A DNA stretch of 20,657 bases. It comes from a virus. Positions 1,661 to 16,979 of this stretch are shown here, in pieces; the first letter of the stretch is position 1; every line of letters begins with the position of its first letter. The stretch is taken from positions 1 to 20,657 of IMG/VR virus record IMGVR_UViG_3300035670_011648; one strand, given 5' to 3'. A program made the translations under genes and the position numbers. Below the pieces are notes generated by a model. It was not told where the DNA came from. It saw only the letters and a list, made by a program, of their open reading frames with translations, and did not search any database.

Positions 1661-3127
1661 ATGATTCTAACAGACCCGGCTGCTGAAAGAGCTGTTTTGG
1701 CTGGCATATGTTCATATGGCGAAGACGCATATCTGGATGTGGCCGACATTGTACAAGAAAGCTCTTTTACTATAGATAGTAATGCTATCATTTTTAAGTG
1801 TCTTAAAACTCTTTGTGAGAGTAGTCAAAAAACCATAGATATAGCATCTATTTATTCTGTGGCCCAGGAACTGGGTTTGTCTAATATATTAGCCAAAAAA
1901 GAAGAAACACAACACTTAAAGGCTATTATAGATTTTCCTGTCAGTTTAGATAATGTTAGAAAATTTGCTGCCAAAATAAGAAAGCTTGAAATAGCCAGAC
2001 TATTACGTAAACAGTTAGAGAATACACAAGATAAAATCCTAGAAGTTACTGGTAATGAACCAATATCTTCTATTATAGGTATAGCCGAAGATAGTATATT
2101 CAACTTCACGTCCTTGCTTAATGATACCGATAGTGGTCCAGAAAAGATCGGTAACGACATAGAAAACTATGTACAATTACTAGAAGAACACAAAGTAGAT
2201 CAAGTTGGTATTCCAACTGGATTTCCTATCTATGATCAATCTATAGGTGGTGGCTTAAGAAAAGGAACTGTCAATGTGATTGCTGCCAGACCAAAAACAG
2301 GTAAAACACTATTGTCAGATAATATGGGTAGAAATATAGCAGCACAGGGTATTCCAGTTTTAAATATGGATACCGAAATGAACAAAGAAGACCATATACA
2401 TAGACTTTTAGCTATGATGACAGAGATAGAAATTAATGCTATCGAAACTGGTAAGTTTGCAGAATCTCCAGAAAAAAAGAGTAAAATATATAAAGCAGTG
2501 GAGGCACTTAAGGAAACTAAGCTTTATCATAAAAGTATTGCTGGTAAATCTTTCGAAGATCAGCTTTCCATTATGAGAAGATGGTTGGTTAAAGAGGTGG
2601 GATTAAACCCGGATGGTACGGCTAAAGAGTGTGTAATTTTTTATGATTATCTTAAGCTAATGGATTCAGCTGGTATATCTCAAGATATGAAAGAATATCA
2701 GGTTTTGGGTTTTATGATGACTAGCCTACACAACTTTGCTGTTAGATACAAAGTGCCAGTGGTTGCCTTTATTCAGTTAAACAGAGACGGTATCACTAAA
2801 GAAAGCACAGACACAGCTAGTGGATCAGATAGAATCATATGGCTATGTAGTAATTTTACTATCTTTAAGCGTAAGTCTGACGAAGAAATAGCGGAAGATG
2901 GTCCAAATAATGGAAATCGTAAGTTAGTGCCACTCATCAGTAGACACGGCGGCGGATTGGACGATAATGACTATATCAACTGCCACATGAAGGGATGGTG
3001 TGCAAAAATTACAGAAGGACAAACCAAGCTGGAAATCAATAATTCAACAAATACTAAAAAAGACGGATTTATAATTAACTCAGAAGATACAAATGAAGAC
3101 AATGAACAAGTCATCCCGTTCGTATGA
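1661..3127 (+). CDS. DnaB-like replicative DNA helicase
   Basis: Hexameric 5'-3' replicative helicase of the DnaB/gp41 family, 488 aa. Domain order: DnaB N-terminal helical domain (starts LTDPAAERAVLAGI), a linker near residues 150-185, then the RecA-like ATPase core (TGFPIYDQSIGGGLRKGTVN). Walker A is RPKTGKT (K215), the Glu-containing strand follows (MDTEMNK), Walker B is IFYDYLKLMD (D329), and the H3/H4 region reads VVAFIQLNRDG. The basic stretch FTIFKRK lies where the arginine finger and ssDNA loop sit in the family. The start ATG is preceded by AAGGA at 1648-1652 with good spacing, and the N-terminus matches DnaB proteins. It overlaps the primase gene, consistent with helicase and primase acting together. 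The C-terminal ~40 residues are polar and acidic and probably disordered. Confidence 0.93.
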   Translation: MILTDPAAERAVLAGICSYGEDAYLDVADIVQESSFTIDSNAIIFKCLKTLCESSQKTIDIASIYSVAQELGLSNILAKKEETQHLKAIIDFPVSLDNVRKFAAKIRKLEIARLLRKQLENTQDKILEVTGNEPISSIIGIAEDSIFNFTSLLNDTDSGPEKIGNDIENYVQLLEEHKVDQVGIPTGFPIYDQSIGGGLRKGTVNVIAARPKTGKTLLSDNMGRNIAAQGIPVLNMDTEMNKEDHIHRLLAMMTEIEINAIETGKFAESPEKKSKIYKAVEALKETKLYHKSIAGKSFEDQLSIMRRWLVKEVGLNPDGTAKECVIFYDYLKLMDSAGISQDMKEYQVLGFMMTSLHNFAVRYKVPVVAFIQLNRDGITKESTDTASGSDRIIWLCSNFTIFKRKSDEEIAEDGPNNGNRKLVPLISRHGGGLDDNDYINCHMKGWCAKITEGQTKLEINNSTNTKKDGFIINSEDTNEDNEQVIPFV

Positions 3128-4253
3128 TCAGCAAAAACTCAAAATTGTTTGCGATCAGGTGTGCGACAATATTGAAGAATTGCTAGAAGCTTTAGATGTC
3201 GAAGACTATAAGCTTTCTACCAAAATGGTTACTATGTCATGCCCCATACATGGTGGAGACAACAGCTCTGCTGTAAATATATATCATGTGGGAGATCACT
3301 ACAGGGGTAACTGGACATGTAGAACCCACGGCTGTGAAGAAATCTTTAAAAACTCCATCATAGGTTTTGTACGAGGCGTTCTATCCAGAATAGAATATGG
3401 TTGGGTAAAAGATGGAGACAATACTGCTTCGTTCAAAGAGGCTGTGGATTTTTGTTTAAAGTTTCTCAACAAGAATATCAAAGATATTAAAGTATCAAAA
3501 TCTAGTAATGAAAAACTGACATTTACCAGAATTGTGGAGAGTGTCAAGAACAGCACCGTTAGTCCCGCACTATCTAGTGTCACTCGTTTACAGGTTAGAC
3601 AATCTCTACAAATACCATCATCCTATTATATCGAAAGAGGATATTCTGATAACATATTAAATAAATATGACATAGGTTTGTGCGATAAGCCTAACAAAGA
3701 AATGTATAATCGTGTTGTTGTACCCATATACTCTAATGATGGGCAACACATTGTTGGCTGTACTGGTAGAAGCATTTTTCCTGCTTGTCATAAATGTGGT
3801 CATTATCATGATGGCAATGACACTTGTCCAGATAAAAATAATTTATGGAAATATTGCAAATGGAAACATAATGCAGGATTTAAATCACAAGAATATCTAT
3901 ACAACTTCTGGTTTGCTAAAGAACACATTCAAAAGACTAAAACAATTATTCTTGTAGAAAGCCCAGGAAACGTATGGAGACTAGAAGAATCTGGTATACA
4001 CAACAGCGTAGCCATCTTTGGATCATCTCTGAGTGACAAACAAAAATTATTAATTGATTCATCTGGGGCTATGAATATAATATTACTAATGGACAATGAC
4101 GACGCCGGACAAAAGGCCGTTAAACAAATTACTGATAAATGCAAAAAAATATATAGAATTTATAATCCCACCTTTTCTAAATCGGATGTGGGTGAAATGT
4201 CAATAGAAGAAATTCAATCAATTCTACTTCCTCAAATACTAGGTATCAAATGA
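3093..4253 (+). CDS. DnaG-like primase (CHC2 zinc finger + TOPRIM)
   Basis: RNA-primer synthase for the phage replisome, 386 aa, shorter than bacterial DnaG because the C-terminal helicase-binding domain is absent. The zinc domain has C50-x2-H53 then C76-x2-H79-x-C81. The catalytic core contains a DnaG-like middle part (YYIERGYSDNILNKYDIGL, RVVVPIYSNDGQHIVGCTGR) and a TOPRIM domain with VES (E289) and the metal motif DNDDAG (D334, D336). Between them is an additional Cys/His cluster, C232-x2-C235 ... C245, which may bind a second zinc. It overlaps the helicase end by 35 bases; ATG at 3102 (26-base overlap) is an equally possible start and neither has a clear ribosome site. It overlaps the kinase by ATGA. 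Confidence 0.9.
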   Translation: MKTMNKSSRSYDQQKLKIVCDQVCDNIEELLEALDVEDYKLSTKMVTMSCPIHGGDNSSAVNIYHVGDHYRGNWTCRTHGCEEIFKNSIIGFVRGVLSRIEYGWVKDGDNTASFKEAVDFCLKFLNKNIKDIKVSKSSNEKLTFTRIVESVKNSTVSPALSSVTRLQVRQSLQIPSSYYIERGYSDNILNKYDIGLCDKPNKEMYNRVVVPIYSNDGQHIVGCTGRSIFPACHKCGHYHDGNDTCPDKNNLWKYCKWKHNAGFKSQEYLYNFWFAKEHIQKTKTIILVESPGNVWRLEESGIHNSVAIFGSSLSDKQKLLIDSSGAMNIILLMDNDDAGQKAVKQITDKCKKIYRIYNPTFSKSDVGEMSIEEIQSILLPQILGIK

Positions 4254-4885
4254 TCATAGCACTAGCAGGCAGAAAACAATCTGGCAAGAGTACTTCTTGC
4301 GAATATATACAGATGCTTCTTAAGGCGCATACAAACTTATCCTGTAAAATATATAGTTTTGCTGACCCCTTAAAACAGGATATTTGCATAAATATTCTTG
4401 GATTAACATATGAACAGTGCTATGGTACAGATGATGATAAGAATACGCTTACTCCCCTAATGTGGAAAGATATGCCAGAATATAATATTACATGGACATG
4501 GAACGACGAATATGATTCTAGTGGATATATGACAGCCAGACAAGTCATGGAGTTTGTAGGCACTAGTATATTTAGACGCATGAAACATAATGTCTGGTCA
4601 GCAGCCACAGTCAACAAAATCAGATCAGAAGATATAGATGTGGCATTAGTAGCTGATTGTCGTTTTCCAAATGAAGTAGAAGCCATTCAAAACAATGGGG
4701 GTGTTGTTATTAGACTAACAAGAGACCCATTTCAGTCTAAGTCTGATAGTGAATCAGCTTTAGATCGGTGTTCTTTTGATTGGTCACTATTTGACTATGT
4801 TTTAGATAACTCAGATACTACATTAGAACAAAAAAATAATCATATACATCAATTTCTTACCAGTAAAGGAATACTAAAATTATAA
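4250..4885 (+). CDS. Deoxynucleoside monophosphate kinase
   Basis: P-loop kinase, 211 aa, resembling T4 gp1-type dNMP kinases, which phosphorylate deoxynucleotide monophosphates to raise the dNTP pool during phage replication. Walker A is GRKQSGKST (residues 7-15). Further family features are SFADPLK, the VADCRFPNEVEAI segment in the region of the Lid/NMP-binding core, and VVIRLTRDP. Length is close to the family norm. The start overlaps the primase stop as ATGA. The stop codon TAA (4883-4885) appears to overlap the real start of the next gene. Kinase identity is firm; the exact nucleotide substrates cannot be read from sequence. Confidence 0.85.
   Translation: MIIALAGRKQSGKSTSCEYIQMLLKAHTNLSCKIYSFADPLKQDICINILGLTYEQCYGTDDDKNTLTPLMWKDMPEYNITWTWNDEYDSSGYMTARQVMEFVGTSIFRRMKHNVWSAATVNKIRSEDIDVALVADCRFPNEVEAIQNNGGVVIRLTRDPFQSKSDSESALDRCSFDWSLFDYVLDNSDTTLEQKNNHIHQFLTSKGILKL
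4865..4870 (+). promoter_or_regulatory. Ribosome-binding site supporting a non-AUG start at 4882
   Basis: AAAGGA inside the 3' end of the kinase gene, 11 bases before the ATA at 4882. No comparable purine-rich site precedes the first ATG (4924) of the nuclease, so this SD argues for initiation at or near 4882-4885. The spacing is slightly long. Confidence 0.4.
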
Positions 4886-5922
4886 TTACATATTTTAGAA
4901 GCTCATCGTATAACACACACTCAATGTGTGAACAGCAATATTTTTTTGAATATGTGCTAGGTTATCGAGGACCAAGTAATCAGAAGGCTGATAAAGGTAC
5001 GATTGTACATAAGGTATTAGAAATACTGGCTTTTGTACAACAAACCAAACAAAATACAGAATCATCTTTTGTTGATGACATTGTAGGTTGTGTGAACATC
5101 AATGACTATGATCTAGATCAGATAATAGATCAGGTTTACGAATATTATACATCTAGGTTTCATCATCATAAGTGGTCTTCCAAAGACCTAGATGATTGTC
5201 GTTCGTGGGTTTACAAAGCTATCACATATAATAATGGGATGTTTGATCCTAGGAATAGAAACATACTATGTCCAGAACAACATTTTGACATAACCATTCC
5301 TGAAGAATGGGCCAAATATAAGTATAACACTGCACAGGGCGTTATAGAAGGTAATTTAGCTATTAAGGGCACAATAGACTTAATAACACAAGTAAGCGAC
5401 AACACTATAGAAATAGTAGACTGGAAAACTGGCAGAAGGCTAAATTGGGCGACTGGTCAAGAAAAAACCCAAGAAAAATTAGAGGACGATCCACAACTAA
5501 GAATATACCACTATGCTGCTCAAAAACTATATCCTCATATAGACCATATTATGGTAACTATTTTTTTCATCAATGATGGTGGAGCATTTAGTATATCTTT
5601 TGATAAAAGCGATCTACCCAAAACAGAATATATGTTAAAAGACAAATTTGACATTATCAGAAAAACCAAAAAACCTAGGTTGCATAAAAGTTGGATGTGT
5701 AGCAAACTATGTCATTATGGTAAGACTACATTTGAGAATACTAATGTATTACCCATACTAGAATATAGAGATGGCCAATTATGCAATGTGAATTCTCATA
5801 TGACTAAATGTGAACAAGTCAAACACGATATAGAGTTGAAAGGTATTGATGCTGTGGTTGACGAATACACAGTTCCAGGATATACTGTTGGAAAATACAA
5901 AGCACCAGGAAGCGTTGAATGA
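4882..5922 (+). CDS. Cas4/RecB-like PD-(D/E)XK exonuclease, probable ATA start
   Basis: Single-strand or end-processing nuclease of the Cas4/AddB/RecB nuclease group, likely used in recombination. Counting from 4882, the motifs are H43 (GTIVHKVLE), D166 (GTIDLI) and D180-W-K182 (EIVDWKTGRR), the classic RecB-type active site. Cysteines at C16 and in the C-terminal CSKLCHYG segment suggest a Cas4-like iron-sulfur or metal site. The first ATG is 4924, but the frame is open upstream and encodes ITYFRSSSYNTHSMCEQQYF, the expected N-terminal segment of this family (I/M-TYFRxSS, then the Cys, then QYFFEYVLGY). The only starts that include it are ATA (4882) or ATT (4885). An ATA start gives a 4-base overlap with the kinase stop, the same geometry as the ATGA junctions elsewhere. 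It ends overlapping polymerase part 1 by ATGA. Confidence 0.82.
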   Translation: MITYFRSSSYNTHSMCEQQYFFEYVLGYRGPSNQKADKGTIVHKVLEILAFVQQTKQNTESSFVDDIVGCVNINDYDLDQIIDQVYEYYTSRFHHHKWSSKDLDDCRSWVYKAITYNNGMFDPRNRNILCPEQHFDITIPEEWAKYKYNTAQGVIEGNLAIKGTIDLITQVSDNTIEIVDWKTGRRLNWATGQEKTQEKLEDDPQLRIYHYAAQKLYPHIDHIMVTIFFINDGGAFSISFDKSDLPKTEYMLKDKFDIIRKTKKPRLHKSWMCSKLCHYGKTTFENTNVLPILEYRDGQLCNVNSHMTKCEQVKHDIELKGIDAVVDEYTVPGYTVGKYKAPGSVE

Positions 5923-7796
5923 AAACCTATATTCCTCTACATGTACATTCTCACTATAGTTTGTTGGATGGATTGTCTAAGCCAAATCAGATCGCTGATC
6001 GTTGTAAAAAAATTGGTGTTGGGTCATGTGCTTTGACAGATCATGGCAACATAGCCGGATCGGTACAATTTCATAACACTATGAAAAAAGCTGGTATCAA
6101 ACCTATTTTAGGTTGCGAACTATATATCAGTGACTCTGATCCGTCTATAAAAGAGAAAGACAATCACACGCATCATTTTTTGATTCTGGCCAAGAATTTA
6201 AAAGGATGGAATCAATTAATGAAAATTATTTCTGAATCCAATAGAGAAGACTATTTTTATCGTAAGCCTAGACTTAGCATGGAGAAGTTGGGGAGTTTTC
6301 TAGACGGAAATCTTATTGGGTTTTGTGGTCATTTAGGATCATATGTTGCCGATCATATACTGGAGAATGATAAGATTAAAAAAGATTGGCAAAAAATAGG
6401 CGTTGAGAAAATTGCTATGATCAAAGAATTGTTTGGAAATGATAATTTTTTTCTTGAAACACAATTAATGGATCAACAGCACAACCCAATACAAAAAGAT
6501 CTTAGTGAGTGCATAAGAGAATTGGGACAAATGACCAAGACTAAAATTATTTGTACGCCAGACGCACACTATGCAGAAAAAGAAGACGCTATAGATCAAA
6601 GAATATTACTGTGTAATAATTTAAAAACAACGTTCTCTGAAATTAATAAAAAAATCATCAATAACGAACCTGTTCCTATGTCAACCTTTTTTGTTTCAGA
6701 CAATTATTATATTTTGTCTCCGGAAGAAATGAGGGATTTACATAATGAGAGCGAAATAGAAAATACATTGCTGGTAGATTCTATGTGTGAAGACTATGAT
6801 ATTTCTCACAAACCAATGTTGCCTCCCTTTAAATGTGAAGGAGGGCCAGATGAATACCTTAGACAACTATGTAGAGAAGGTTGGCTACAAAAAATTGCCA
6901 AAATTATACCAAAAGAGCAACAAGATCAATATACTGACAGAATCAAGTATGAGCTATCTGTTTTACAGGGTGCTGGTCTGTCCAGCTACTTTTTAATAGT
7001 GTCCGACATAGTGAATCATGTGCGCTCTAGCGGGTGGCTACCGGGTCCAGGCAGAGGTTCTGCCGCTGGTTGTTTGGTGTCGTATCTGATAGGAATTACC
7101 AGTATTGATCCTATAAAATATAATCTAATCTTTGAAAGATTTTATAATTCTGGTAGAAATACTGCTAATCGTATCTCCATGCCAGATATAGACGTAGACG
7201 TACCTATCAACAAAAGAGAATATGTGATATCATATATCAAGAACAAATATGGTAATAATAACGTATCTCAAATGATTACTTTTAACACGTTGAAAGGTCG
7301 TGGGGCTCTAAAAGATGTTCTTAGAGTATATGGAGATATTACCTTCGACGAGATGAATAATATCACCAAAACGATACCTGACGAAGCCAAGATTGCCGAC
7401 GAATTGCAGGAAATGAAAGAGGAATACGGAGAAGCATCAATAATACAGTGGGCGTTAGAAAATAATGCTGACAAACTCAAGACTTGGTGTTATATTAATG
7501 AAGATGACGGTTCTCTTGCCGGTCCATTGGCTAAAAGATTTGAACAGGCTATAAGACTGGAAGGAACAAAGGTTAACCAATCCAGACACGCAGCTGGTAT
7601 CGTTATTTCTGATCAATATTTAGGCAATGTTTGTCCTATGGTATATGACACCAAAAATAAGCAACAGATTGCGGGTATGGAAATGCAAGACTTAGAAACT
7701 CTTGGTATTATCAAATTCGATATTCTCGGAGTTGCGATGTTAGATAAAGTAATGACAGTAAGTGACTTATTGAAAAATGGAGGTAGTTATGAATAA
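5919..7796 (+). CDS. DNA polymerase III alpha, N-terminal half (PHP + palm)
   Basis: First piece of a C-family (DnaE-type) replicative polymerase, 625 aa. The PHP domain at 1-~225 keeps what looks like the full metal-ligand set: H8, H10, D17, D41-H42 (TDHGN), E67, the HTHH cluster at 83-86, H138 and D215-A-H217. E. coli DnaE has lost part of this set. The palm has GPGRGSAAG (376-384), the catalytic PDIDVDV (422-428) and the third catalytic Asp in IIKFDILG (D601). The product stops 24 residues after that Asp, before the fingers. The missing fingers, beta-binding and OB parts are encoded at 8678-10300. The stop overlaps the next ATG by 8 bases (ATGAATAA), so this is a designed gene end rather than a frameshift. 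The N-half cannot be a complete polymerase by itself. Confidence 0.93.
   Translation: MKTYIPLHVHSHYSLLDGLSKPNQIADRCKKIGVGSCALTDHGNIAGSVQFHNTMKKAGIKPILGCELYISDSDPSIKEKDNHTHHFLILAKNLKGWNQLMKIISESNREDYFYRKPRLSMEKLGSFLDGNLIGFCGHLGSYVADHILENDKIKKDWQKIGVEKIAMIKELFGNDNFFLETQLMDQQHNPIQKDLSECIRELGQMTKTKIICTPDAHYAEKEDAIDQRILLCNNLKTTFSEINKKIINNEPVPMSTFFVSDNYYILSPEEMRDLHNESEIENTLLVDSMCEDYDISHKPMLPPFKCEGGPDEYLRQLCREGWLQKIAKIIPKEQQDQYTDRIKYELSVLQGAGLSSYFLIVSDIVNHVRSSGWLPGPGRGSAAGCLVSYLIGITSIDPIKYNLIFERFYNSGRNTANRISMPDIDVDVPINKREYVISYIKNKYGNNNVSQMITFNTLKGRGALKDVLRVYGDITFDEMNNITKTIPDEAKIADELQEMKEEYGEASIIQWALENNADKLKTWCYINEDDGSLAGPLAKRFEQAIRLEGTKVNQSRHAAGIVISDQYLGNVCPMVYDTKNKQQIAGMEMQDLETLGIIKFDILGVAMLDKVMTVSDLLKNGGSYE
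7779..7783 (+). promoter_or_regulatory. Strong SD for the 61-aa gene, inside polymerase N-half
   Basis: GGAGG five bases before the ATG at 7789. It selects 7789 over the in-frame ATG at 7777 and is one of the strongest ribosome sites in the replication block. Confidence 0.7.
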
Positions 7797-7974
7797 GCTA
7801 TTTTCTGAATTAAATGTTGGAGACCAATTTAAGGTACAAGGCTCTGACACCACATATAGAAAAATAGAAGCAGTAAAGGTTAGTTGTTGTAGATCTATTA
7901 ACGCAGAAGACATTTCTAATGTCGCTAACAGGACTTTTCTCGCCCCAGGAACAGTAGTAGTAATTAATGGCTAA
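7789..7974 (+). CDS. Small conserved-looking phage protein, unknown function
   Basis: 61-aa product beginning MNKLFSELNVGDQFKVQG. The alternating pattern (VGDQFKV, TTYRKIEAVKV, RTFLAPGTVVVI) suggests a small all-beta barrel. It has a Cys pair (SCC) but no catalytic motif or membrane segment. The start is set by GGAGG at 7779-7783. It overlaps polymerase part 1 and the exonuclease by exactly 8 bases each. It lies between the two halves of the polymerase alpha subunit, so it might help the halves or the exonuclease associate; that is inference from position only. I do not recognise the family. Confidence 0.75.
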   Translation: MNKLFSELNVGDQFKVQGSDTTYRKIEAVKVSCCRSINAEDISNVANRTFLAPGTVVVING

Positions 7975-8662
7975 TAATCAAAAAATTTGTGTGTTTGATC
8001 TGGAAACAGACGGCAAGGATCCTAATGTTTGTAGTCCCGTACAAATTGCTGCGATCATAGTGGATCCTTTTAAGCTGGAGATTGTGCCAGATTCTGAATT
8101 TAATATCAACTTAAAACCATCGGCTTTAGAAAGCGACAATAATTACAAGTATGAAGATTCTGATGTTTTAGATTTTCATGCTAAAGTTAAAAATAGTTCT
8201 AAAGCATCTATATTAGAAGAATGGCATAATTATCCTAAGCAGGAAGCTGGATGGAAGATGTTTGTCTCATATTTAGAGATGTATCATCTAAGACCAGATA
8301 AAAAATCGTGCTTTACAGCTCCTATAGCAGCCGGATATAATATCAACCGATTTGACCTTAAGATCATAGAAAAGCTGAGTATTAAATATAAAAACGTGAA
8401 TAAAGAAGGTAATTCATCTTTGTTCTATCCTAGAGATGTGATAGATATTATGAACTTGATTTTTTATTGGTTTGAAGGCTCTAAGGAATTAAGCAGCTAT
8501 ACATTAGACAATGTAAGAGATTATCTTGGCATATCTAAAGAAGGGGCACACGATGCTCTAAAGGATGTTAAAGATTCGGCAAATATCTTGGTTAGATTTT
8601 TAAAGCTACATAGAAAACTAGCTGCCAAGGTTAAATTTAAAGATTCATTTTTGGTGGACTAG
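7967..8662 (+). CDS. DnaQ-like DEDDh 3'-5' exonuclease (proofreading subunit)
   Basis: 231-aa member of the DEDDh exonuclease family that includes Pol III epsilon, which removes misincorporated nucleotides. The motifs are present in order: ExoI D11-L-E13 (FDLETDG), ExoII D130 (GYNINRFDL) and ExoIII H195-x4-D200 (GAHDALKDVKDSA). Family length is about 180-240 aa. There is no recognisable clamp-binding tail. Its position between the two parts of the alpha gene makes proofreading for that polymerase the obvious role. The gene ends in TAG, the only TAG among the plus-strand genes here, and the frame continues open from that stop into polymerase part 2 (five codons then its ATG). The start overlaps the upstream gene by ATGGCTAA; no clear SD is seen. 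Confidence 0.9.
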   Translation: MANNQKICVFDLETDGKDPNVCSPVQIAAIIVDPFKLEIVPDSEFNINLKPSALESDNNYKYEDSDVLDFHAKVKNSSKASILEEWHNYPKQEAGWKMFVSYLEMYHLRPDKKSCFTAPIAAGYNINRFDLKIIEKLSIKYKNVNKEGNSSLFYPRDVIDIMNLIFYWFEGSKELSSYTLDNVRDYLGISKEGAHDALKDVKDSANILVRFLKLHRKLAAKVKFKDSFLVD

Positions 8663-8677
8663 CCCTATAATAGATTT

Positions 8678-10300
8678 ATGGAATACTATACATTTGACTG
8701 CGGGTGTAAGTTCCCACTTATCGGAAAGTCTGATGGGGAAACTATGCCAAAAATTGATTTCTCTACAGATATTCTATCTCTGAATTTTGAGTGTGCTAGA
8801 ACCTGGGAAATGATTTCTGCTGGTAATACCAAAGGTTGTTTTCAGCTAGAATCAAGACTTGGTCAAAGCATGGCAAAAAAACTCAAGCCATCAAATATAG
8901 AAGAACTATCTGCTCTGATTAGTATCATGAGACCCGGATGCCTAGAAGCTATTAGAGATGGTAAAACTGTTAGTAATCATTTTATAGACAAGAAAAACGG
9001 ATTAGAGTCTATTGATTATTTTAATGAAGCACTAGAACCGATACTAAAAACCACATTCGGCGAAATGGTCTATCAAGAGCAAGCAATGGAAATTGCTCAA
9101 AAAATAGCTGGTTTTGATTTACAAGAAGCTGATCAATTAAGAAAAGCTATTGGTAAAAAGAAACCAGAGGAGATGGCAAAGCTTAAAACAACATTTATCG
9201 AAGGCTGCAAAAAAACTAAAATTGTATCGACAGAGGAAGCAGAGCAAATTTTTAGCTGGATTGAAAAATCTCAGAGATATTCATTTAATAAATCTCATGC
9301 TGTTAGTTATGCTATTAATGCATATCTGTCAGCATATAGTAAAGCACACTTTCCCAAAATCTTTTTTGCATCATATCTCAAATATGCCAAAGATAAAATT
9401 GATCCACAACAAGAAATCAAAGAGTTAGTTAAAAATGCTACAGAAATGGATATTGATATTTGTGTACCCGATTACCGATTACTGAATCAGTTTTTCGTAA
9501 TAAGAAATAATAAAATCTACTTTGGTCTAACAGACATTAAGGGTGTAGGAGAGTCAGTATATAAAAAAATAGTAGAACTATCGAAAAGACTCAATGTTAA
9601 AAGCTTATCGTGGATAGAAATAGTACTATACGTATTATTGAATATTAATGCTACAGCAGCCAAGGCTTTGATTTGTTCTGGAGCCTTTAGTTATATTCCT
9701 AAGCATCGTACAGAAATGTTGTTCGAATATGAGATTTTTAGTCAGCTAACCAAAAAAGAAATAGAATACCTGTTATCTGTTGGTTCTGTTAAAGATTTTA
9801 ATATTTTGCAACTTCTTAATATTTTAACCAAAAAAAGCAGACTGACTCAAAACAGGGTCAATATTATTAATGCGTTAATTAGTTCTGTTGTGCATCCTCC
9901 ATACTCTTTAGAAGATAAAATAGAATGGATTTGTGATAATGAGAGCGCCTTACTGGGTATTAATTTAACATACTCTAAAGTAGATTCATATGATATTACT
10001 ATGACTAATACTACTTGTAAAGAATTTAAAGACTCTAATCGCAAAACAATTATTATAGCTGGTGAAATAGATAATGTTAATGTTATCAAAATTAAAAATG
10101 GCAAAAATAAGGGTAACGAGATGGCCTTTGTCAGTATTTCTGACGGAACGGGACATATCGACTCTGTAGTGTTTTTTACAGAACAATTGGCGATATATAG
10201 AAACCAATTGTTTGATGGTAACATACTAATTTTTCAAGGGTCTAAATCTTTTAAAAGAAGTGACTTGGTAGTAGAAAAATGCTATGTTCCAGCTGCTTGA
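8678..10300 (+). CDS. DNA polymerase III alpha, C-terminal half (fingers, beta-binding, OB)
   Basis: Second piece of the split C-family polymerase, 540 aa. It begins with a short Cys-containing segment (YTFDCGCKFP, residues 4-13), then the fingers motif NTKGCFQLES (50-59), the IMRPG and MVYQEQAM segments, and SFNKSHAVSYA (202-212), all characteristic of DnaE. Tandem helix-hairpin-helix-like sequence follows (VPDYRLLNQ ... YFGLTDIKGVGES), and the last ~95 residues form an OB fold (IIIAGEIDNVNVI ... FVSISDGTGHIDSVVF). It contains none of the catalytic Asp residues, which are in the N-half. Start ATG 8678 has no SD; 15 bases separate it from the exonuclease stop. The two halves together reach about 1165 aa, the size of a bacterial DnaE, so together they account for a full-length subunit. 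Confidence 0.92.
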   Translation: MEYYTFDCGCKFPLIGKSDGETMPKIDFSTDILSLNFECARTWEMISAGNTKGCFQLESRLGQSMAKKLKPSNIEELSALISIMRPGCLEAIRDGKTVSNHFIDKKNGLESIDYFNEALEPILKTTFGEMVYQEQAMEIAQKIAGFDLQEADQLRKAIGKKKPEEMAKLKTTFIEGCKKTKIVSTEEAEQIFSWIEKSQRYSFNKSHAVSYAINAYLSAYSKAHFPKIFFASYLKYAKDKIDPQQEIKELVKNATEMDIDICVPDYRLLNQFFVIRNNKIYFGLTDIKGVGESVYKKIVELSKRLNVKSLSWIEIVLYVLLNINATAAKALICSGAFSYIPKHRTEMLFEYEIFSQLTKKEIEYLLSVGSVKDFNILQLLNILTKKSRLTQNRVNIINALISSVVHPPYSLEDKIEWICDNESALLGINLTYSKVDSYDITMTNTTCKEFKDSNRKTIIIAGEIDNVNVIKIKNGKNKGNEMAFVSISDGTGHIDSVVFFTEQLAIYRNQLFDGNILIFQGSKSFKRSDLVVEKCYVPAA

Positions 10301-10368: not shown

Positions 10369-10749
10369 ATGAATATTGTTATTATTAGAGGTAATCTTGC
10401 TAGGGATCCTGAAGTTAGAACTGTTAGTACCGGAGGTAAGGAAACTTCTGTTGTGAACTTTACGGTTGCTACCTCTAGAGAGTATACTAAGTCCAACGGT
10501 TCCAAGGATAAGATTACTTCTTTTATACCATGTGAAGCATGGGATACGGGTGCGGAGATTATCGGTCGTTCTTTTAAGAAGGGCGATTTAGTTCTTGTAG
10601 AAGGATCAATCAGAAACGATTCTTGGGAAAAGGATGGAGTAAAGCATTCCACCTTGAAGATTCGTGTCAATAACTTCTCAAAGATTACAAAGCTATCCGC
10701 TGGTACTAAGAACTCGGAAGCAAATAAAGAAGAGACAGTAGCTTTCTAA
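10369..10749 (+). CDS. ssb: Single-stranded DNA-binding protein
   Basis: Bacterial-type SSB, 126 aa, coating ssDNA at the fork and during recombination. OB-fold landmarks are MNIVIIRGNLARDPEVR, a VVNFTVATSREY strand, FIPCEAWDTGAE (the xxxWxxxAE motif) and KKGDLVLVEGSI. The short tail ends EETVAF, an acidic/hydrophobic tip like the DDDIPF of bacterial SSBs that recruits partner proteins. Codon use differs from its neighbours: 12 of 13 lysines are AAG, while the first lysines of the following gene are all AAA. With its own promoter, strong SD and terminator, this looks like a highly expressed, separately controlled gene. The tip lacks the canonical Asp-Asp-Asp run. Confidence 0.95.
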   Translation: MNIVIIRGNLARDPEVRTVSTGGKETSVVNFTVATSREYTKSNGSKDKITSFIPCEAWDTGAEIIGRSFKKGDLVLVEGSIRNDSWEKDGVKHSTLKIRVNNFSKITKLSAGTKNSEANKEETVAF

Positions 10750-10809: not shown

Positions 10810-12504
10810 ATGAGCAAACCACTTAAAATTTTATTTTGTAACGAAGCTAGTTTTCTTAGTACAGGTTTTGCCGTATACGGTAAAGAATTTCTTAAAAGAT
10901 TATCCAAAGATCCAAGATTTTATGTGGCTGAGCTTGCTTGCTACGGTTATGTAAACGACAAAAGAGATAAAGATGTTAACTGGAGATATTACGCCAACGC
11001 CGTACATTCTCATGACTCTAGGTTTAGTGTATACGAGTCGAATAGAGAAAACCCGTTCGGAAGATGGAGATTTGAAAAAACGGTTTTAGACTTCAAACCA
11101 GATGTAGTTATAGATATTAGAGACTACTGGATGAATTCTTATCAAGCACTATCTCCTTTAAGGAGATATTTTCATTGGATACTAATGCCCACTATTGATT
11201 CTTATCCACAACAAGAAAGCTGGCTAAACACTTATATAGATGCTGATGCTATCTTTACCTATTCCGACTGGGCAAAAAATGTATTGGCTCTACAAACCAA
11301 CAATAAAATTAATTATATAGATACAACATCTCCTGGTATAGATACCGACATATTTTTGTCTCTTAACAAGACAGATTGTCGTCAAAAATGGGGAATACCT
11401 GAAGATATTTTTCTGGTAGGTTCTGTTATGAGAAACCAGAAACGCAAACTAATCCCTGAACTCATCAAAACAGTTAGATCTATCATAGATCATCTTGTTG
11501 ATATTAAACATCCATTGGCTAACAAAATATTTTTATATCTTCATACTGGCTATCCAGATTATGCTGGTTGGAATATTCCCAATATTCTCAAAGAATATAG
11601 GATGTTAAACAGAACGCTACTAACCTATGTGTGTAAAGCATGTAGGCATGTTTTTGCCGATGTATACAGCGGTATTCATCGAGTATGTCCTAAGTGTAAA
11701 AATAAATCATGCAGTATGCCATCTGTGAATCACGGCATTTCTGAGAACGATTTAGTCGCACTGTATAATGCCTTTGATTTTTATGTACAATATTCTATTT
11801 GTGAAGGTTTTGGTATGCCTCAGGTAGAAGCAGCGGCTTGTGGTATTCCCTTAGCCACTGTTAACTACAGCGCTATGGAGGATATCGTTAATAAATTGGA
11901 TGCACAACCTATCAGAGTGTCTACGTTCTTTAAAGAACTAGAAACACAAGCAATCAGAGCATATCCAGATAATGAAGATTTGAAAAATATCATCATAAAC
12001 TTTATCAACCTGCCACAACCTATAAAAAGCGTCAAAGCACAAAAAATTAGAAGCCTATGTACGCAACACTATAATTGGGATAATATTTACAGCAAATGGG
12101 AAACATATCTCTTGTCTCTATATAATCAAAAACAAGAAAAAACATTTGATCCATATGATATGATAAAAAATATGCAGACTAAACCACTATTGGACTTGGA
12201 AGTGATCAAGCAATCTAACGGCAGTGTTTATGACAAAATAAGCCACATCTACACACATTATCTCGATAATATCGATCAATCTAATTCGTATGAAATGTTA
12301 AATATGGTTAATAAGCTAATAACAAAAAATTCTATTGGTGATCATCAAGTATCGAGTTACGACTGGGAAGATGCTGTTCAACAATTTAATACTATGATCA
12401 ATAATCATAATACAATTATAAATTTTGTAAAAGACAATACTGCTATAGAAGAAGATTTTATTCAGTATGCCAATATCAAAGATCCGAGAATTAAAAGTGA
12501 ATAA
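10810..12504 (+). CDS. GT-B (GT4-like) glycosyltransferase with internal zinc ribbon
   Basis: 564-aa nucleotide-sugar-dependent glycosyltransferase. The N-terminal Rossmann domain begins ILFCNEASFLSTGFAVYGKE, the interdomain region contains TSPGIDTDIF as in GT4 enzymes, the donor domain starts LVGSVMRNQKRKLIPELI, and the E-x7-E motif is CEGFGMPQVEAAACG (E332, E340). Inserted in the donor domain is a zinc ribbon, C275-x2-C278 ... C293-x2-C296, not part of the standard fold. The ~130 C-terminal residues after the GT domain are polar and of unknown role. Phage GTs of this kind modify DNA, virion proteins or host surface glycans; which one cannot be read here. There is no SD, and the SSB terminator ends just before the ATG. 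It overlaps the next gene by 8 bases. Confidence 0.88.
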   Translation: MSKPLKILFCNEASFLSTGFAVYGKEFLKRLSKDPRFYVAELACYGYVNDKRDKDVNWRYYANAVHSHDSRFSVYESNRENPFGRWRFEKTVLDFKPDVVIDIRDYWMNSYQALSPLRRYFHWILMPTIDSYPQQESWLNTYIDADAIFTYSDWAKNVLALQTNNKINYIDTTSPGIDTDIFLSLNKTDCRQKWGIPEDIFLVGSVMRNQKRKLIPELIKTVRSIIDHLVDIKHPLANKIFLYLHTGYPDYAGWNIPNILKEYRMLNRTLLTYVCKACRHVFADVYSGIHRVCPKCKNKSCSMPSVNHGISENDLVALYNAFDFYVQYSICEGFGMPQVEAAACGIPLATVNYSAMEDIVNKLDAQPIRVSTFFKELETQAIRAYPDNEDLKNIIINFINLPQPIKSVKAQKIRSLCTQHYNWDNIYSKWETYLLSLYNQKQEKTFDPYDMIKNMQTKPLLDLEVIKQSNGSVYDKISHIYTHYLDNIDQSNSYEMLNMVNKLITKNSIGDHQVSSYDWEDAVQQFNTMINNHNTIINFVKDNTAIEEDFIQYANIKDPRIKSE

Positions 12505-13393
12505 CAAATTAGTATTTTTATCTAACACTAAAAATAGTTTTTGCGATAATCTAAAAAAAGAAGCAGAACCCAAAGAACTTTGCTTGATACAGCTTAACGA
12601 ATTAGAGCATCCATATATTTCAAAAAAATTTCATAAAAATATCTGTATACCAGATATCAAACTATTGAGTGATATATCAATACCTCCAGAATACAGATTT
12701 ATTGACCATTTGTGCTGTACTAATGATTTGGTCTCATCCATATTAGACAACCAAAACCTAGAACACTTTAAGCTAAATTATAAGTGGAATCCTATAGATC
12801 ACGAGATACAAATAAATAATACATATAAAAATATGTTTAAATATGGGGCTGTATTTAACTATAGAGATGATCAGGTGATTTTACAAGATTTGCTATATGT
12901 TTTCTATGAAGCTACAAAAAATACAGACAATGTGATATTATTATTGTACGTATCCCATGAATCTAACAAAGAAGTCGTGGAAGATATTAAAAACTTACAC
13001 AACAGACTTAATATCAAACCGCATCAATCTAAAATTTTGTTATATACACAACAGAGCTTTGATGATATTAGTAAAATGTCTTTGATCAATATCTGCGACT
13101 GTATGATGCTTTTCAATTCTATAAGCATAGACGAACTAATATATAATCATACATTATTCAAAAATAAAACATTAATGTCTAAATACAAACTTTATAACTC
13201 TAATCATAATATAAAAATACTAAATACGACTAAAAAAATGATTAAATACAAGGGAAAGCGAAAATTTTACGAACATATAGATATACATAATTTATATACA
13301 TATTTGACAACAATCAATCATGACAACGGTATGCAAATTATGATGAATCATCAGCCACCACAATCCACAAATATTTCAGCTATTCTATGTTAA
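12497..13393 (+). CDS. Degenerate GT-B glycosyltransferase-like protein
   Basis: 298-aa product from GTG 12497, chosen because GTGAATAA overlaps the GT stop by 8 bases exactly as at 7789 and 16518, and because the protein then opens with a Rossmann-type strand (NNKLVFLSN). ATG 12467 would add ten residues. The second half has the layout of a GT4 donor domain: a strand before a helix (YGAVFNYRDDQVILQDLLY), NVILLLYVSHESNKEVVEDI, and near residue 200 CDCMMLFNSISIDEL, where GT4 enzymes have D-x-hydrophobic-S ... E. The normal E-x7-E and glycine-rich loops are not recognisable, so catalysis is doubtful. Very AT-rich with many ATA and AAT codons. Homology is inferred from pattern, not a strong motif. 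Confidence 0.6.
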   Translation: MNNKLVFLSNTKNSFCDNLKKEAEPKELCLIQLNELEHPYISKKFHKNICIPDIKLLSDISIPPEYRFIDHLCCTNDLVSSILDNQNLEHFKLNYKWNPIDHEIQINNTYKNMFKYGAVFNYRDDQVILQDLLYVFYEATKNTDNVILLLYVSHESNKEVVEDIKNLHNRLNIKPHQSKILLYTQQSFDDISKMSLINICDCMMLFNSISIDELIYNHTLFKNKTLMSKYKLYNSNHNIKILNTTKKMIKYKGKRKFYEHIDIHNLYTYLTTINHDNGMQIMMNHQPPQSTNISAILC

Positions 13394-14103
13394 ATTCTAT
13401 ATTATACAATAGGCTATATGAGCGTGATGAGCATATAAATAAAATACTTTATATCAAAGCGAAATCTTTGTTTGATGTCATTGTAGAAATGGTATTATCC
13501 GATAAAATTATTAGTTCTACAATCAATAATCCATACAATGGATATATAATATATAATCAAATTATTATTAATGATGTTACCCCACATTATAAGCTTATAG
13601 ACAATTTAGAAGATAGCAGTCATTTAATAATATTTTTGCACGAAGATCTCGATAGACTTAAAACAGAAGATACTATGATTGTATGCAGTAAAATTAAACA
13701 ATCTAAAGTTATCAATTTTCATACAAAATCTAAACTAAACCCAGGAACGGGTATACAATATGCTATACCTAAACCGCCAAAAATTAATGATGAGCAGCGC
13801 CATAAAAATTTGTTGATATTGGGTCAAAATATTAGATCAAAAATTACCAATGCTGATATTGTTGTTGACTTTGATGAGCTGAGATCATACAATGATATTG
13901 TATCTTTGTTGCAGCAATACAAGGTGGTTGCTTGTGATCATGTTGTAGAAAAAATGTTAGCACAAAGCATGGGATGTAAAACAATAGGCTGTGGTAATAT
14001 AGTGTCAGACATAGCTAATGAAGCCTATGACAATAATCTTAAGATCAATTATGACTTTAAATCTTTTACAGCACAGCTAAACAAATTAGTGAATAATAAA
14101 TGA
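13387..14103 (+). CDS. Degenerate GT-B donor-domain-like protein
   Basis: 238 aa. The C-terminal half resembles a glycosyltransferase donor domain: NLLILGQNIRSKI (141-152), NADIVVDFDELRSYNDI, LLQQYKVVACDHVVEKMLAQ (E188), then SMGCKTIGCGN. The succession of surface position, Glu, and small residue plus Gly/Cys turn is that of the E-x7-E region of GT-B enzymes, but the second Glu is missing. The N-terminal half contains a Rossmann-like strand (HLIIFLHEDLD). It overlaps its upstream neighbour by 7 bases and the downstream one by ATGA. An inactive subunit or scaffold partner of the active GT is possible. Function not recognised. Confidence 0.55.
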   Translation: MLNSILYNRLYERDEHINKILYIKAKSLFDVIVEMVLSDKIISSTINNPYNGYIIYNQIIINDVTPHYKLIDNLEDSSHLIIFLHEDLDRLKTEDTMIVCSKIKQSKVINFHTKSKLNPGTGIQYAIPKPPKINDEQRHKNLLILGQNIRSKITNADIVVDFDELRSYNDIVSLLQQYKVVACDHVVEKMLAQSMGCKTIGCGNIVSDIANEAYDNNLKINYDFKSFTAQLNKLVNNK

Positions 14104-14477
14104 ATATACTAGATATAAGTAATCAAACCATAGAAGAAATACATAATATCCCAAATCACTCACAATTATGTATTGTACATAACAATATAGACTTGTTACA
14201 AGATAAGCCGACAGCTTTTGATACTATTATTTCTAAACTAAGAATAGGCGGCGAGTTTATATTGTTTTTTACCGATGTGAGCGCCCTGTTGTCTGATTGT
14301 CAAAACAACATCATATCCAAACAAGACTTCTGCAACAACATGCAGAATGTTAAATACTATACCGACTATAATGAACTGTCTTATTATATTATGAATTTAG
14401 AACCAAATATTAGTCTATATAAGCATGTTAGAGAAAACTATAAAATAATTATATCCTTAGTAAGAAAGCAATATTAA
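14100..14477 (+). CDS. Short methyltransferase-like fragment protein
   Basis: 125 aa. The middle reads DTIISKLRIGGEFILFFTDV (41-60), the typical motif-V/VI region of class I SAM methyltransferases (helix, x-L-R/K-x-GG-x-hydrophobic strand, D), and the end (YKIIISLVRKQ) resembles their last beta hairpin. The SAM-binding N-terminal motif (hydrophobic strand, D/E-x-G-x-G-x-G) is absent; the preceding part instead gives LCIVHNNIDLL. It therefore looks like half a methyltransferase fold that has lost cofactor binding. It overlaps upstream by ATGA and downstream by one base (TAATG), so it is kept in the operon and is not obviously a pseudogene. Confidence 0.5.
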   Translation: MNILDISNQTIEEIHNIPNHSQLCIVHNNIDLLQDKPTAFDTIISKLRIGGEFILFFTDVSALLSDCQNNIISKQDFCNNMQNVKYYTDYNELSYYIMNLEPNISLYKHVRENYKIIISLVRKQY

Positions 14478-15202
14478 TGAATACAGAATGTACTAAATGC
14501 ATATTTTATAATGAAGAACATTGGTGTGATTTTTCCATACCTTCTGTTCTTGATACCAAAAAGTACAACACAGATGAAACAACCCATACTATCAATGATT
14601 ATAAATGTAATTATGCTTTTGGTAAACAAACTTTTGAGTTTATAAAAGACGAAACAAAAGAATCTATTAGTGAGAAAATTTTTAATAGAAATAGATTATC
14701 TGTATCTTTGGTGGTTAATTTTGACAATTGTAATACTACGACAGAAGCTATCTGTGATATTATAGAAAACTTAGCTTTTCAGCCATCCAATATTTTATGT
14801 TATGGAAAAAAGATCTCAGCTAACGATATTACAACATTCAAAGATAAAAGTCCTATTCCTTGGAAACTAAATCAAATTCAGCCGGATATTCCAGATACAT
14901 TAGCTTTGGCGTCTAGTGTAGATACCACCACGGGTAAAAACAATACTGTGGGATTTTTACATATCAATTCAGAAGAATCTCTGCTAGACCTAGATAACCT
15001 AATAAATGGTTTACATATTAGTATTGTCATTAATAATAACGTGGGCATTTTTTATAAAACACAAAATAATATTGATGGAATGTTTATGTTTTATGATGAT
15101 TATAAAACCATAGGTACCGATAAACTGATTTTGATAGACTCCCCTTGGCTATTTTTTAATCTAGATTCGTATAAACAAACACCGGTTCATACATACATAT
15201 GA
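14477..15202 (+). CDS. Unknown protein with N-terminal Cys motif, possibly GT-A-like
   Basis: 241 aa. The N-terminus has C5-x2-C8-x8-C17 ... C44, a likely zinc or Fe-S site. Next comes a strand-helix unit (LSVSLVVNFDNCNTTTEAICDIIENL), which looks like the start of a GT-A nucleotide-sugar-binding fold, but the D-x-D metal motif expected later is not evident. The product also carries NNTVGFLHINSEESLLDLDNLI and GLHISIVINNNVGIFYK, which could be the rest of such a fold. Start shares one base with the upstream stop (TAATG); the end overlaps by ATGA. I do not recognise a family. Its position inside the glycosyltransferase-like block is the only functional hint. Confidence 0.5.
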   Translation: MNTECTKCIFYNEEHWCDFSIPSVLDTKKYNTDETTHTINDYKCNYAFGKQTFEFIKDETKESISEKIFNRNRLSVSLVVNFDNCNTTTEAICDIIENLAFQPSNILCYGKKISANDITTFKDKSPIPWKLNQIQPDIPDTLALASSVDTTTGKNNTVGFLHINSEESLLDLDNLINGLHISIVINNNVGIFYKTQNNIDGMFMFYDDYKTIGTDKLILIDSPWLFFNLDSYKQTPVHTYI

Positions 15203-15888
15203 TCGATATCGTATTTGTTATTCCTGAAATTACCAAAGGTATGAAGTCTTTTGGACCAAAATCTTTGATTCATATAAAAAACATATCTGTTATTGAACAT
15301 CAGCTAATGCAAATACGTTCACATTTTCGAAATAATCATATATACTTGCTTACAGGTTTTGAGTCAGATAAAATTAAAAAAGTAGTTTCGTCATCCAGAT
15401 ATGTTACTAAAAAAAAGCATATTCACATCTTAGAAAATAAATCATATGAATCTCATAATCAAACATCGTCAATCCACCAGTATGCTCAACAGTATCAATC
15501 CAATCACGGAGCTATGTTTATTAACAATGGTATATTAACCAAATATAATTTTTCAAAAATAATTAACAAAAACAAAAATCACTTATTTTTTGTAGGAGGA
15601 CAAAAGGCTAACTTTAATATTGGTAGTTCTCAACTAGATTCAATTGAATATTTGTTTTACGATCTTCCTAATTTGTGGTCAGAATGTGTTTATCTAACCA
15701 ACCAATCAATTCATTATATTAAAGAACTGAATATTGATAATATTAAATCTATTTTTTTCTTTGAGCTAATAAACCAGCTTATAGATAAGCAGTTTGAATT
15801 CGACAGTGCAACAATACCAAAAACACAAATACTCAAAATCATTAATATAAAAGATACCTCCAAAGTTAAAAATTTTATCAATGCCTAA
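15199..15888 (+). CDS. Nucleotidyltransferase-like (NTP_transferase fold) protein
   Basis: 229 aa. The N-terminus, VFVIPEITKGMKSFGPKSLI then VIEHQLMQIR, follows the layout of sugar-phosphate nucleotidyltransferases (hydrophobic strand, G-x-G-x-R-M loop, P-K-x-L, then I-x-x-Q-L). Here the loop is TKGMKSFGPK: K21 of the PK motif is kept, but the Arg before Met is Gly and the small-residue loop is altered. A later segment, GAMFINNGILTKYNF, sits where such enzymes place the metal-binding Asp (D-x-D or G-D); no Asp is present. Active nucleotidyltransferases make NDP-sugars for glycosyltransferases, so a modified or inactive form fits the neighbourhood. Overlaps: ATGA upstream, 8 bases downstream. 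Confidence 0.6.
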   Translation: MIDIVFVIPEITKGMKSFGPKSLIHIKNISVIEHQLMQIRSHFRNNHIYLLTGFESDKIKKVVSSSRYVTKKKHIHILENKSYESHNQTSSIHQYAQQYQSNHGAMFINNGILTKYNFSKIINKNKNHLFFVGGQKANFNIGSSQLDSIEYLFYDLPNLWSECVYLTNQSIHYIKELNIDNIKSIFFFELINQLIDKQFEFDSATIPKTQILKIINIKDTSKVKNFINA

Positions 15889-16525
15889 AACAAAAATTAT
15901 TATCTCCAATACGCGATCTAGATTTCTTAACATGCTGCGAAATAATCTTGTCAGTCATGTCAATAATATAGATGCTTATGTCGTTGACGTTAATGATATT
16001 TTTAAAGCATATGACATTATTAAACCCGCTCATATTTATCTTGATAAAAACGATACACATAATAAAGCTATCAAATTATTTAAGCAAGATATTATTTTAC
16101 AGAGCGGTAACTGTACTATACATGATAACGACTCGGCGTTTTGTCATATTACTGATATTAAAATATATTACAATCAAAACCTAAAAAGAAACAATACTCT
16201 AGCAATTATATTTGACTCATACTCAGACGATAATTTGTTACAAAAACTAGATGCTGATAGTATACCGTATCATATATTTGATTCGCCTCATATATTACAT
16301 AAATATAATTTAGGCTTATTAACAGACAACGAAAAAGCACACATTATGAATACTTATCGTGGCATCATTACACCACACAAAGCATATATAGCAGAAAGCA
16401 AAATTTGTAACTGTCCACACTATGATATGTTGGACCCTGATAGTATTATCAATAATAAGCTACAAAATTTCAACGATGCAGTTATTGATATCAACGAATA
16501 TATTAAAAACAACTTATATGAATAA
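15881..16525 (+). CDS. Unknown, Rossmann-like; possible degenerate glycosyltransferase
   Basis: 214 aa. The N-terminal unit (TKIIISNTRSRFLNMLRNNL, with ADAYVVDVND-like spacing afterwards) suggests a Rossmann strand-turn-helix. The second half, NTLAIIFDSYSDD, then YHIFDSPHILHKYNLGLL, then YRGIITPHKAYIAESKICNC, runs in the same order as the donor-domain end of the protein encoded at 13387-14103 (strand, L-rich helix, Y-x-hydrophobic strand, A-E/Q, small, C-x-C), so the two may be distant relatives. No catalytic residues can be assigned. Start overlaps the previous stop by ATGCCTAA and the end overlaps the next ATG by ATGAATAA. Function unknown. Confidence 0.5.
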   Translation: MPKTKIIISNTRSRFLNMLRNNLVSHVNNIDAYVVDVNDIFKAYDIIKPAHIYLDKNDTHNKAIKLFKQDIILQSGNCTIHDNDSAFCHITDIKIYYNQNLKRNNTLAIIFDSYSDDNLLQKLDADSIPYHIFDSPHILHKYNLGLLTDNEKAHIMNTYRGIITPHKAYIAESKICNCPHYDMLDPDSIINNKLQNFNDAVIDINEYIKNNLYE

Positions 16526-16979
16526 AAATCTAGATATAGGCATTATAGCCAATACAGCAAATCAGTTTATTCTAGGCTGCAAAATACTTAATGAGTATAT
16601 TATTAATCGTCCAGAGAAACAAAGTATTATTTTTCATACTAATGATGTTGATTATTTTAATACTAACTTGATTCCTATTCTGCCGATTTGTGAATGCAAG
16701 TTCTTTTACGGCAACTTATTAGTGTTCGATATACAAGGACTAACTATTGCTCTTGACTGTCCGAATATTTCACAGATTATCCTATATCTACAGGATCACA
16801 TATGGCAGTCACACTCAAACAGGTCATATTTTAGCCTATATCAACTATTCAATCATCCAAAAATAGTAGTTGTTGCTACAGACGAACAGAAAGCACATGA
16901 TTATTATCATTGTTGGAGTAGAAAACCAGACCTAGTATGCGGAGACATAAGCTATGACAAACTTTCACAAGTCTTATAA
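16518..16979 (+). CDS. Unknown small Rossmann-like protein
   Basis: 153 aa from ATG 16518, chosen because ATGAATAA overlaps the upstream stop by 8 bases, as at two other junctions, and because the product opens with a nucleotide-fold-like strand (LDIGIIANTANQFILGCKIL). An in-frame ATG at 16422 would lie deep in the upstream gene. Other strands are KIVVVATDEQKAHDYYHCW and QGLTIALDCPNISQIILYL. I see no catalytic motif. Last of the degenerate glycosyltransferase-like series; its end overlaps the endonuclease by 26 bases. Function not recognised. Confidence 0.5.
   Translation: MNKNLDIGIIANTANQFILGCKILNEYIINRPEKQSIIFHTNDVDYFNTNLIPILPICECKFFYGNLLVFDIQGLTIALDCPNISQIILYLQDHIWQSHSNRSYFSLYQLFNHPKIVVVATDEQKAHDYYHCWSRKPDLVCGDISYDKLSQVL

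Follow-up and report, generated by a model that had tools for sequence, protein, structure and literature searches.

The window analyzed here is the whole 20,657-bp IMG/VR record IMGVR_UViG_3300035670_011648, a virus fragment of ~20.7 kb. It carries the alpha subunit of DNA polymerase III (PolIII alpha) in two genes, here called the N half and the C half, with two further open reading frames (ORFs) between them (aa, amino acids):

5919..7796, + strand: N half of PolIII alpha, 625 aa, PHP and palm domains (PF02811, PF07733, phrog_405)
7789..7974, + strand: 61-aa protein of a lineage-specific family with the motifs F..l.vG..F and SCC...NA (alignment A4, profile search)
7967..8662, + strand: DEDDh 3'-5' exonuclease, 231 aa, probable proofreading subunit (PF00929, phrog_192)
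8678..10300, + strand: C half of PolIII alpha, 540 aa, with a Cys-x-Cys leader, fingers, HhH (beta-binding) domain and OB fold (PF17657, PF14579, PF01336, phrog_405)
7790..8677, no strand: palm/fingers break holding the small gene and the exonuclease, with neighboring genes that overlap or nearly abut (overlap statistics, 85 non-redundant loci)

All four ORFs lie as placed in a preliminary description of the window, which had assigned the PHP domain and the palm with its three catalytic Asp residues to one gene, the fingers, beta-binding and OB domains to another, and the 61-aa protein and DEDDh exonuclease to the gap (Pfam, PHROGs). We collected relatives by searching IMG/VR with either half and GTDB genomes once, which yielded 204 loci, the window included; several are overlapping fetches from one contig, and the set contains 105 distinct exonuclease sequences. 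The order N half, exonuclease, C half is found in 204/204 loci carrying all three large genes, and a fusion of any two in 0/204. Because the pattern recurs in this many relatives, chance and mis-assembly are excluded as its source. Between close relatives (~81–90% identical), the nonsynonymous divergence (dN) of the N half, exonuclease and C half is ~0.08–0.14, with synonymous sites near saturation. Ratios of dN to synonymous divergence (dS) are 0.03–0.06 where computable and 0.06–0.16 for the small gene, the saturation of dS precluding exact values. Judged from these sequence comparisons, strong purifying selection acts on both the N and the C half.

One N-type and one C-type locus are present in each of 20 possibly incomplete contigs of 75–233 kb, apart from a single N half that a split intein interrupts. 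A second intact dnaE, the possibility of which had been raised for the window (a fragment of only 20.7 kb), was found in none of these 20 contigs, and neither a family A (PolA) nor a family B (PolB, PF00136) polymerase was found in the 14 large contigs tested. Given this single copy and the lack of PolA and PolB, the split enzyme is the only recognizable polymerase of these contigs.

The two halves are consecutive parts of one enzyme. The N half covers positions 42–615 of phrog_405, a single-chain phage polymerase family that the C half takes up at 615 and follows to 1066. In the N half, the PHP domain is intact (PF02811, 1e-35) and PF07733 matches over its full length (7e-74). The palm catalytic residues D423, D425 and D601 are invariant in alignment A2, and each is present in 101 of the 105 distinct relatives, the exceptions being one altered sequence and alignment gaps where genes are broken. 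Two relatives have a fragmented half, the N half lying in four pieces in L139 and the C half in two overlapping pieces in L197, both probably through frameshifts or sequencing errors. A model of the N half superposes on residues 1 to ~640 of solved PolIII alpha, PHP domain included, with a Z score of ~32. The PHP ligand positions H8, H10, H42, E67, H86, H138, D215 and H217 are kept in ~85–100% of the distinct sequences; H8 is changed to L in eight members, H10 to E or G in eight and H217 to Y in five.

The C half corresponds to residues 584–1057 of E. coli alpha, and the tau-binding C-terminal domain is missing. Its fingers (PF17657, 2e-46) and HHH_6 domain (PF14579, 8e-9) match above the cut-off and its OB fold (PF01336) slightly below it; the modeled OB fold matches solved OB folds with a Z score of ~12. 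The fingers residues Q133, R155, K156, K160 and H207 are conserved, with R155, K156 and K160 present in 104 of the 105 distinct sequences. The new N terminus of the C half (residues 1–40, window 8678–8800) bears a conserved Cys-x-Cys leader and a conserved Cys39. This leader, which is absent from intact DnaE and also from some members of the group (L007, L083 and L099), is possibly a metal-binding or docking cap. No clear sliding-clamp binding motif was seen by eye in the C-half alignment (A1).

Profile comparison with solved structures puts the break between approximately residues 565 and 584 of E. coli alpha and between residues 629 and 639 of the Taq enzyme. It follows the Asp of KFDxLG and precedes the fingers, and so lies in the palm–fingers linker. 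This agrees with the earlier placement just after the third catalytic Asp and away from the site of the cyanobacterial DnaE split intein, which lies near FNKSH. The claim that the junction ends lack intein features also held: Pfam detects no intein or Hint domain at either end in the window, and the window contains no Rfam RNA (intron), so that an intron or intein at the palm/fingers junction was rejected. The further claim of clean, coupled gene ends needs a minor amendment. In the window, the N half and small gene overlap by 8 nt, as do the small gene and exonuclease, but the exonuclease and C half are 15 nt apart and share a frame with one TAG between them, whereas an overlap of 4 or 8 nt is seen in most relatives. 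Across the 85 non-redundant loci, the most frequent spacings are −4 nt (N half/small gene), −8 nt (small gene/exonuclease) and −4 or −8 nt (exonuclease/C half). The latter two pairs overlap in most loci; the first overlaps in about half, the rest being mostly ≤5 nt apart. Such spacing is typical of translational coupling. The relative frames of the N half, exonuclease and C half vary among loci, and all three never share one frame. Because of this variation, a fixed frameshift or readthrough across the three genes is ruled out.

The exonuclease matches PF00929 (1.5e-10) and phrog_192, annotated as 'DNA polymerase exonuclease subunit', and its catalytic residues D11, E13, D130, H195 and D200 are invariant in 105/105 distinct sequences. 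Its model resembles the folds of DinG, DnaQ, RNase T and TREX, the closest solved folds also including ExoI and PolC. Unlike in PolC, where the exonuclease domain lies inside the PHP domain of the same chain, it is a separate ORF following the palm. Because PHP ligands are changed in several members, the sequences hint that the DEDDh enzyme rather than the PHP domain is the indispensable nuclease. In E. coli, the proofreading subunit epsilon binds the PHP domain of alpha, its tail wrapped round that domain (PMC3642679), and in Pbunavirus PA11P1 (MN131143) the gene for a DnaQ-like exonuclease (epsilon) overlaps the alpha gene, but lies upstream of an unsplit alpha. By analogy with these two cases, we infer that the exonuclease binds the N chain as a proofreader. 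In a predicted fold of the N half and exonuclease joined by the intervening junk residues, each part folds; lacking an interface measure, this prediction has no bearing on docking. Bacteroides phage DAC19, among the best isolate matches to the exonuclease, was considered as a candidate relative and rejected: the genes of ~555, 76 and 636 aa beside its exonuclease are a terminase, a small ORF and an NAD ligase, not a split polymerase.

The 61-aa protein has no Pfam match and no tblastn match among isolated phages. Its gene is nonetheless recognized by profile in 202/204 loci, and all 20/20 large contigs have a single copy, invariably placed in the polymerase gap. In two related contigs (L137 and L140, 5260–5318) it is missing, and the N half and exonuclease lie in one frame with a stop codon alone between them (TAAATG). 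The split therefore persists through a natural deletion of the small gene, and the 61-aa protein is not strictly required. Other loci carry additional ORFs here: an HNH-like ORF sits between the N half and small gene in L059 (2130–2813), and two unrelated ORFs of 146 and 191 aa separate the exonuclease and C half in L013 (10769–11784). The polymerase gap seems to attract additional genes.

To model the two halves together, we used a contiguous stretch of L005, whose N and C halves are 83% and 81% identical to those of the window and in which the palm and C half lie in one frame, so that the gap between them reads as ~291 meaningless residues. The AlphaFold2 model of this chain has a mean predicted local distance difference test (pLDDT) score of 69.5, the junk residues being mostly <50. 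It superposes on the ternary complex of Taq PolIII alpha (3e0d; Z score of 31.4, 640 residues, 4.2 Å), on the M. tuberculosis enzyme (5lew; Z score of 34.0, 542 residues, 4.3 Å) and on PolC (3f2c; Z score of 26.5, 470 residues, 3.5 Å). In these superpositions the model forms one body, and the aligned ranges extend from the palm into the C half. Because either half alone is too short for the aligned counts, both halves must be in place in the model. AlphaFold2 thus puts the palm and C half together as in intact PolIII alpha, in line with the docking anticipated from the window, and the model supports, without proving, the retention of a compatible canonical palm–fingers interface.

The best-supported interpretation of these sequences and models is the one first proposed for the window. 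It is probable that the locus encodes the replicative C-family (DnaE-type) polymerase of a large uncultivated tailed-phage clade, working as two non-covalent chains with the exonuclease as its proofreader. A single break at the palm–fingers linker in the ancestor of the clade would have left two chains ever since. The PHP–palm chain would supply the three catalytic metal-binding Asp residues and the fingers–HhH–OB chain the dNTP- and template-binding surface and further DNA contacts. Made side by side from overlapping or nearly abutting genes, the chains would pair through the normal palm–fingers interface, and the resulting active site would be that of a single-chain DnaE. The DEDDh exonuclease, produced in step with the halves from the gap, would most likely be an epsilon-like bound proofreader, and the small protein would play an accessory part, perhaps bridging the junction or acting there as a chaperone. 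A bolder version, which we put forward tentatively and think may well be wrong, holds that the clade replicates with an obligately multi-chain polymerase core, that palm and fingers are never covalently joined anywhere in it and that the exonuclease, with the 61-aa protein in most members, is a structural subunit holding the chains together, assembly switching on synthesis and proofreading.

Several points weigh against the two-chain polymerase with a bound proofreader. The case for it rests on sequence and predicted structure. The docking model is a superposition without an interface score (predicted aligned error, PAE), at the modest mean pLDDT given above; it was built on the 81–83%-identical L005 rather than on the window; and AlphaFold may have reproduced the known fold of the family. 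The model takes in the palm and C half, with the exonuclease and small protein outside it. No beta clamp gene that would account for processivity was found in the 14 large contigs tested. Finally, the PHP metal site is largely conserved in sequence, so the PHP domain could itself be the proofreader.

This last point leads to the explanation that competes best, in which the two halves are real and do pair up, whereas the exonuclease is an independent nuclease that happens to be co-transcribed, acting in primer removal or in processing of single-stranded DNA ends, proofreading being left to the PHP domain. The retention of the PHP ligand positions and the likeness of the exonuclease to RNase T, ExoI and TREX besides DnaQ and PolC are compatible with such a division of labor. 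We nevertheless consider it unlikely, given that the exonuclease lies inside the polymerase gene at every locus, that its catalytic residues are invariant where PHP ligands are changed in several members, and that phrog_192 is annotated as a polymerase subunit. Alternatively, the halves might stay separate or the polymerase be inactive, the N half serving as a PHP nuclease or nucleotidyltransferase and the C half as a DNA-binding protein while the host polymerase copies the phage. Host-dependent replication is common among phages and would sit well with the negative clamp search; however, the active-site residues of both halves are conserved together, the N and C halves always co-occur and the modeled halves dock as in intact enzymes, all of which makes this account improbable. 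Still less credible is a joining of the halves by a cryptic split intein, intron, frameshift or readthrough. True split inteins are present at two other polymerase sites in L035 and L086, and the shared frame of the window's exonuclease and C half could be read in this sense, but the junction has no Hint/intein domain or Rfam intron, the frames differ among loci and are never all three alike, and both genes in the gap are conserved and under selection. Although endonuclease genes break phage dnaE in KLEB27-3, MMB025 and L117, a recent mobile-element disruption or assembly artifact that left a pseudogene is already refuted by the comparative data, since 204 loci in one deep clade under strong purifying selection, with inserted genes that are not endonucleases, rule out mis-assembly, a pseudogene and a recent insertion.

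To place the two-chain polymerase among its relatives, we built a tree of 33 split members together with 24 further polymerases, taken from records of other phages and from a single metagenome-assembled genome (MAG). All split members fall on one branch with a long stem (SH-aLRT support of 100), and the nearest unsplit polymerases are ~30–35% identical. An unsplit sister of the clade was sought by walking outward from divergent members, and the search returned only more split ones. The break possibly goes back to the insertion of a split intein or an endonuclease, the mobile portion of which disappeared once the halves could assemble by themselves. Three contigs from GTDB MAGs also carry the split polymerase (L117–L119, in Alphaproteobacteria, Chitinophagia and Flavobacteriales MAGs); these are probably co-binned phage contigs, and hence no host is claimed.

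Further interruptions occur at other sites. L035 has two split inteins in one polymerase, one in the palm (7637–10031; PGPGRG|CFIPD... // ...VHN|SAAGCL) and one in the fingers (10879–13827; SFNK|SILAN... // ...ATSN|SHAVSYA), with an endonuclease-like ORF (11814–12770) between the halves of the latter; together with the fixed split, its polymerase would come from four ORFs. L086 (4053–7142) has a split intein at the same PGRG site and a different ORF (5513–6307) between the intein halves, a 'fractured gene' arrangement; by eye, this ORF shows motifs of cysteines and a region resembling Vsr/PD-(D/E)XK. Pfam intein/Hint matches in L035 and L086 are below threshold yet consistent. In L117 (1942–4935, from the Alphaproteobacteria MAG bin), the palm is broken just before DxD by a LAGLIDADG-like endonuclease ORF that lacks intein ends; this may be an intron or an insertion that disables the gene. 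Outside the clade, endonuclease genes break dnaE within the fingers in phages KLEB27-3 and MMB025. Phage Jayan (L213) has a break inside the palm, where a small ORF separates the pieces, and its near-identical Bacillus phage relative PS1 (L214) is intact; by sequence comparison, this is a recent natural break.

On the + strand of the window, the split polymerase belongs to a phage replication module that runs from a RecA fragment through a single-strand DNA-binding protein (SSB; ORF calls, Pfam, PHROGs):

1661..5922, + strand: upstream replication genes, namely DnaB helicase, Toprim primase, deoxynucleoside monophosphate (dNMP) kinase and a PD-(D/E)XK nuclease (Cas4/RecB-like) (Pfam; PHROGs for the nuclease)
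10369..10749, + strand: SSB, directly 3' of the C half (PF00436, 1e-25; phrog_44)

Beyond it, a possible glycosyltransferase-like ORF (10810–12504) precedes a block of tightly packed + strand ORFs (12000–16980) with lower GC content (~0.27–0.30) and reversed GC skew, which looks like acquired DNA. A homing-endonuclease-like protein (16954–17763; phrog_559, phrog_9084) has a Vsr-like stretch in its C-terminal part. On the minus strand, opposite to most genes, lies a Thr/Pro/Ser-rich low-complexity protein with TPTPT repeats (19305–20168), flanked by two more minus-strand ORFs. Searches of the large contigs with the Pfam profiles for terminase and gp23 gave no matches, the gp23 search having had no working control.

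Replicative polymerases are almost always drawn as a single chain in which palm and fingers have to move together. A deep clade that keeps the two apart while both stay under strong selection would mean that the enzyme can do without the covalent link, and our sequence and model data suggest that a usually single-chain enzyme is able to work as an assembled complex. The clade offers a natural system for testing how the palm–fingers interface holds and moves, as well as a naturally split polymerase for engineering, and the proofreader gene, sitting right at the break, hints that fidelity could be controlled through the order of assembly.

Relative to DnaE-type PolIII alpha (Taq 2hpi/3e0d, M. 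tuberculosis 5lew/7pu7 and E. coli 2hnh/5fkv), the domain order is the same and the halves align consecutively on one chain; the differences are the two genes, the lack of a tau-binding C-terminal domain and the added Cys-x-Cys leader. Splits of phage PolIII alpha are known, which qualifies the description of this enzyme as unusual. The closest case is Rossellomorea phage phiT1 (gp18–gp20, PV767480; L209 3986–7268), whose alpha breaks at this palm/fingers linker too, the gap holding a 49-aa ORF. No exonuclease lies in that gap, phiT1 is 29–34% identical, and in the tree it falls outside the split clade on a long branch of unsure placement; by sequence, its split is probably an independent event. 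Because phiT1, broken at this linker too, lies elsewhere in the tree, the linker probably tolerates breakage and has been split on at least two occasions. As an isolated, culturable phage, phiT1 is a convenient laboratory model for two-chain assembly.

Other phages split the polymerase elsewhere. Microbacterium EF phages have two PolIII alpha genes (PMC7302621); in these and other actinophages (Onyinye, Madi, Anakin and Trina), DnaE is encoded by two neighboring genes, in some cases separated by a small ORF, but the break follows the PHP domain, so that the first gene encodes ~300–345 aa and palm and fingers share a chain. In OM43 phages MEP401 and MEP402 and most members of their group, PolA is divided between two ORFs that flank a small one of unknown function, an arrangement for which the authors consider an intron possible (PMC10580990); that polymerase belongs to family A, unlike the C-family enzyme here. 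In a survey of bacterial C-family polymerases searched for splits, the only ones mentioned are the cyanobacterial intein ones, besides fragments put down to frameshifts (PMC3919608), and in a second survey the matches to 'split' concern other senses of the word (PMC12926913). We found no description of a palm/fingers split enclosing an exonuclease in open-license full texts. As far as searched, then, what is undescribed is the fixed palm/fingers split around an exonuclease.

Two other arrangements bear on the debate about how C-family polymerases were built up. In group 2.2 jumbo phages, which also have a PolB, a minimal PolIII alpha without a PHP domain is encoded by two genes that lie far apart (Iyer et al. 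2021, PMC7824862). There, too, two phage proteins are thought to reconstitute a C-family enzyme, but they divide it into an NTP-binding and a Mg2+/template-binding subdomain, with PHP and other domains missing (PMC7824862), whereas here the PHP domain is present, the genes are adjacent and no PolB was found in the 14 contigs. Cyanobacterial DnaE (Caspi et al. 2003, cited in PMC3919608) is encoded in two genes joined by a split intein; it is trans-spliced at a later site, whereas the present break is at a different site and has no intein ends. To these distant-gene and split-intein forms, the polymerase described here would add a further arrangement, in which adjacent genes encode palm and fingers on either side of a proofreader.

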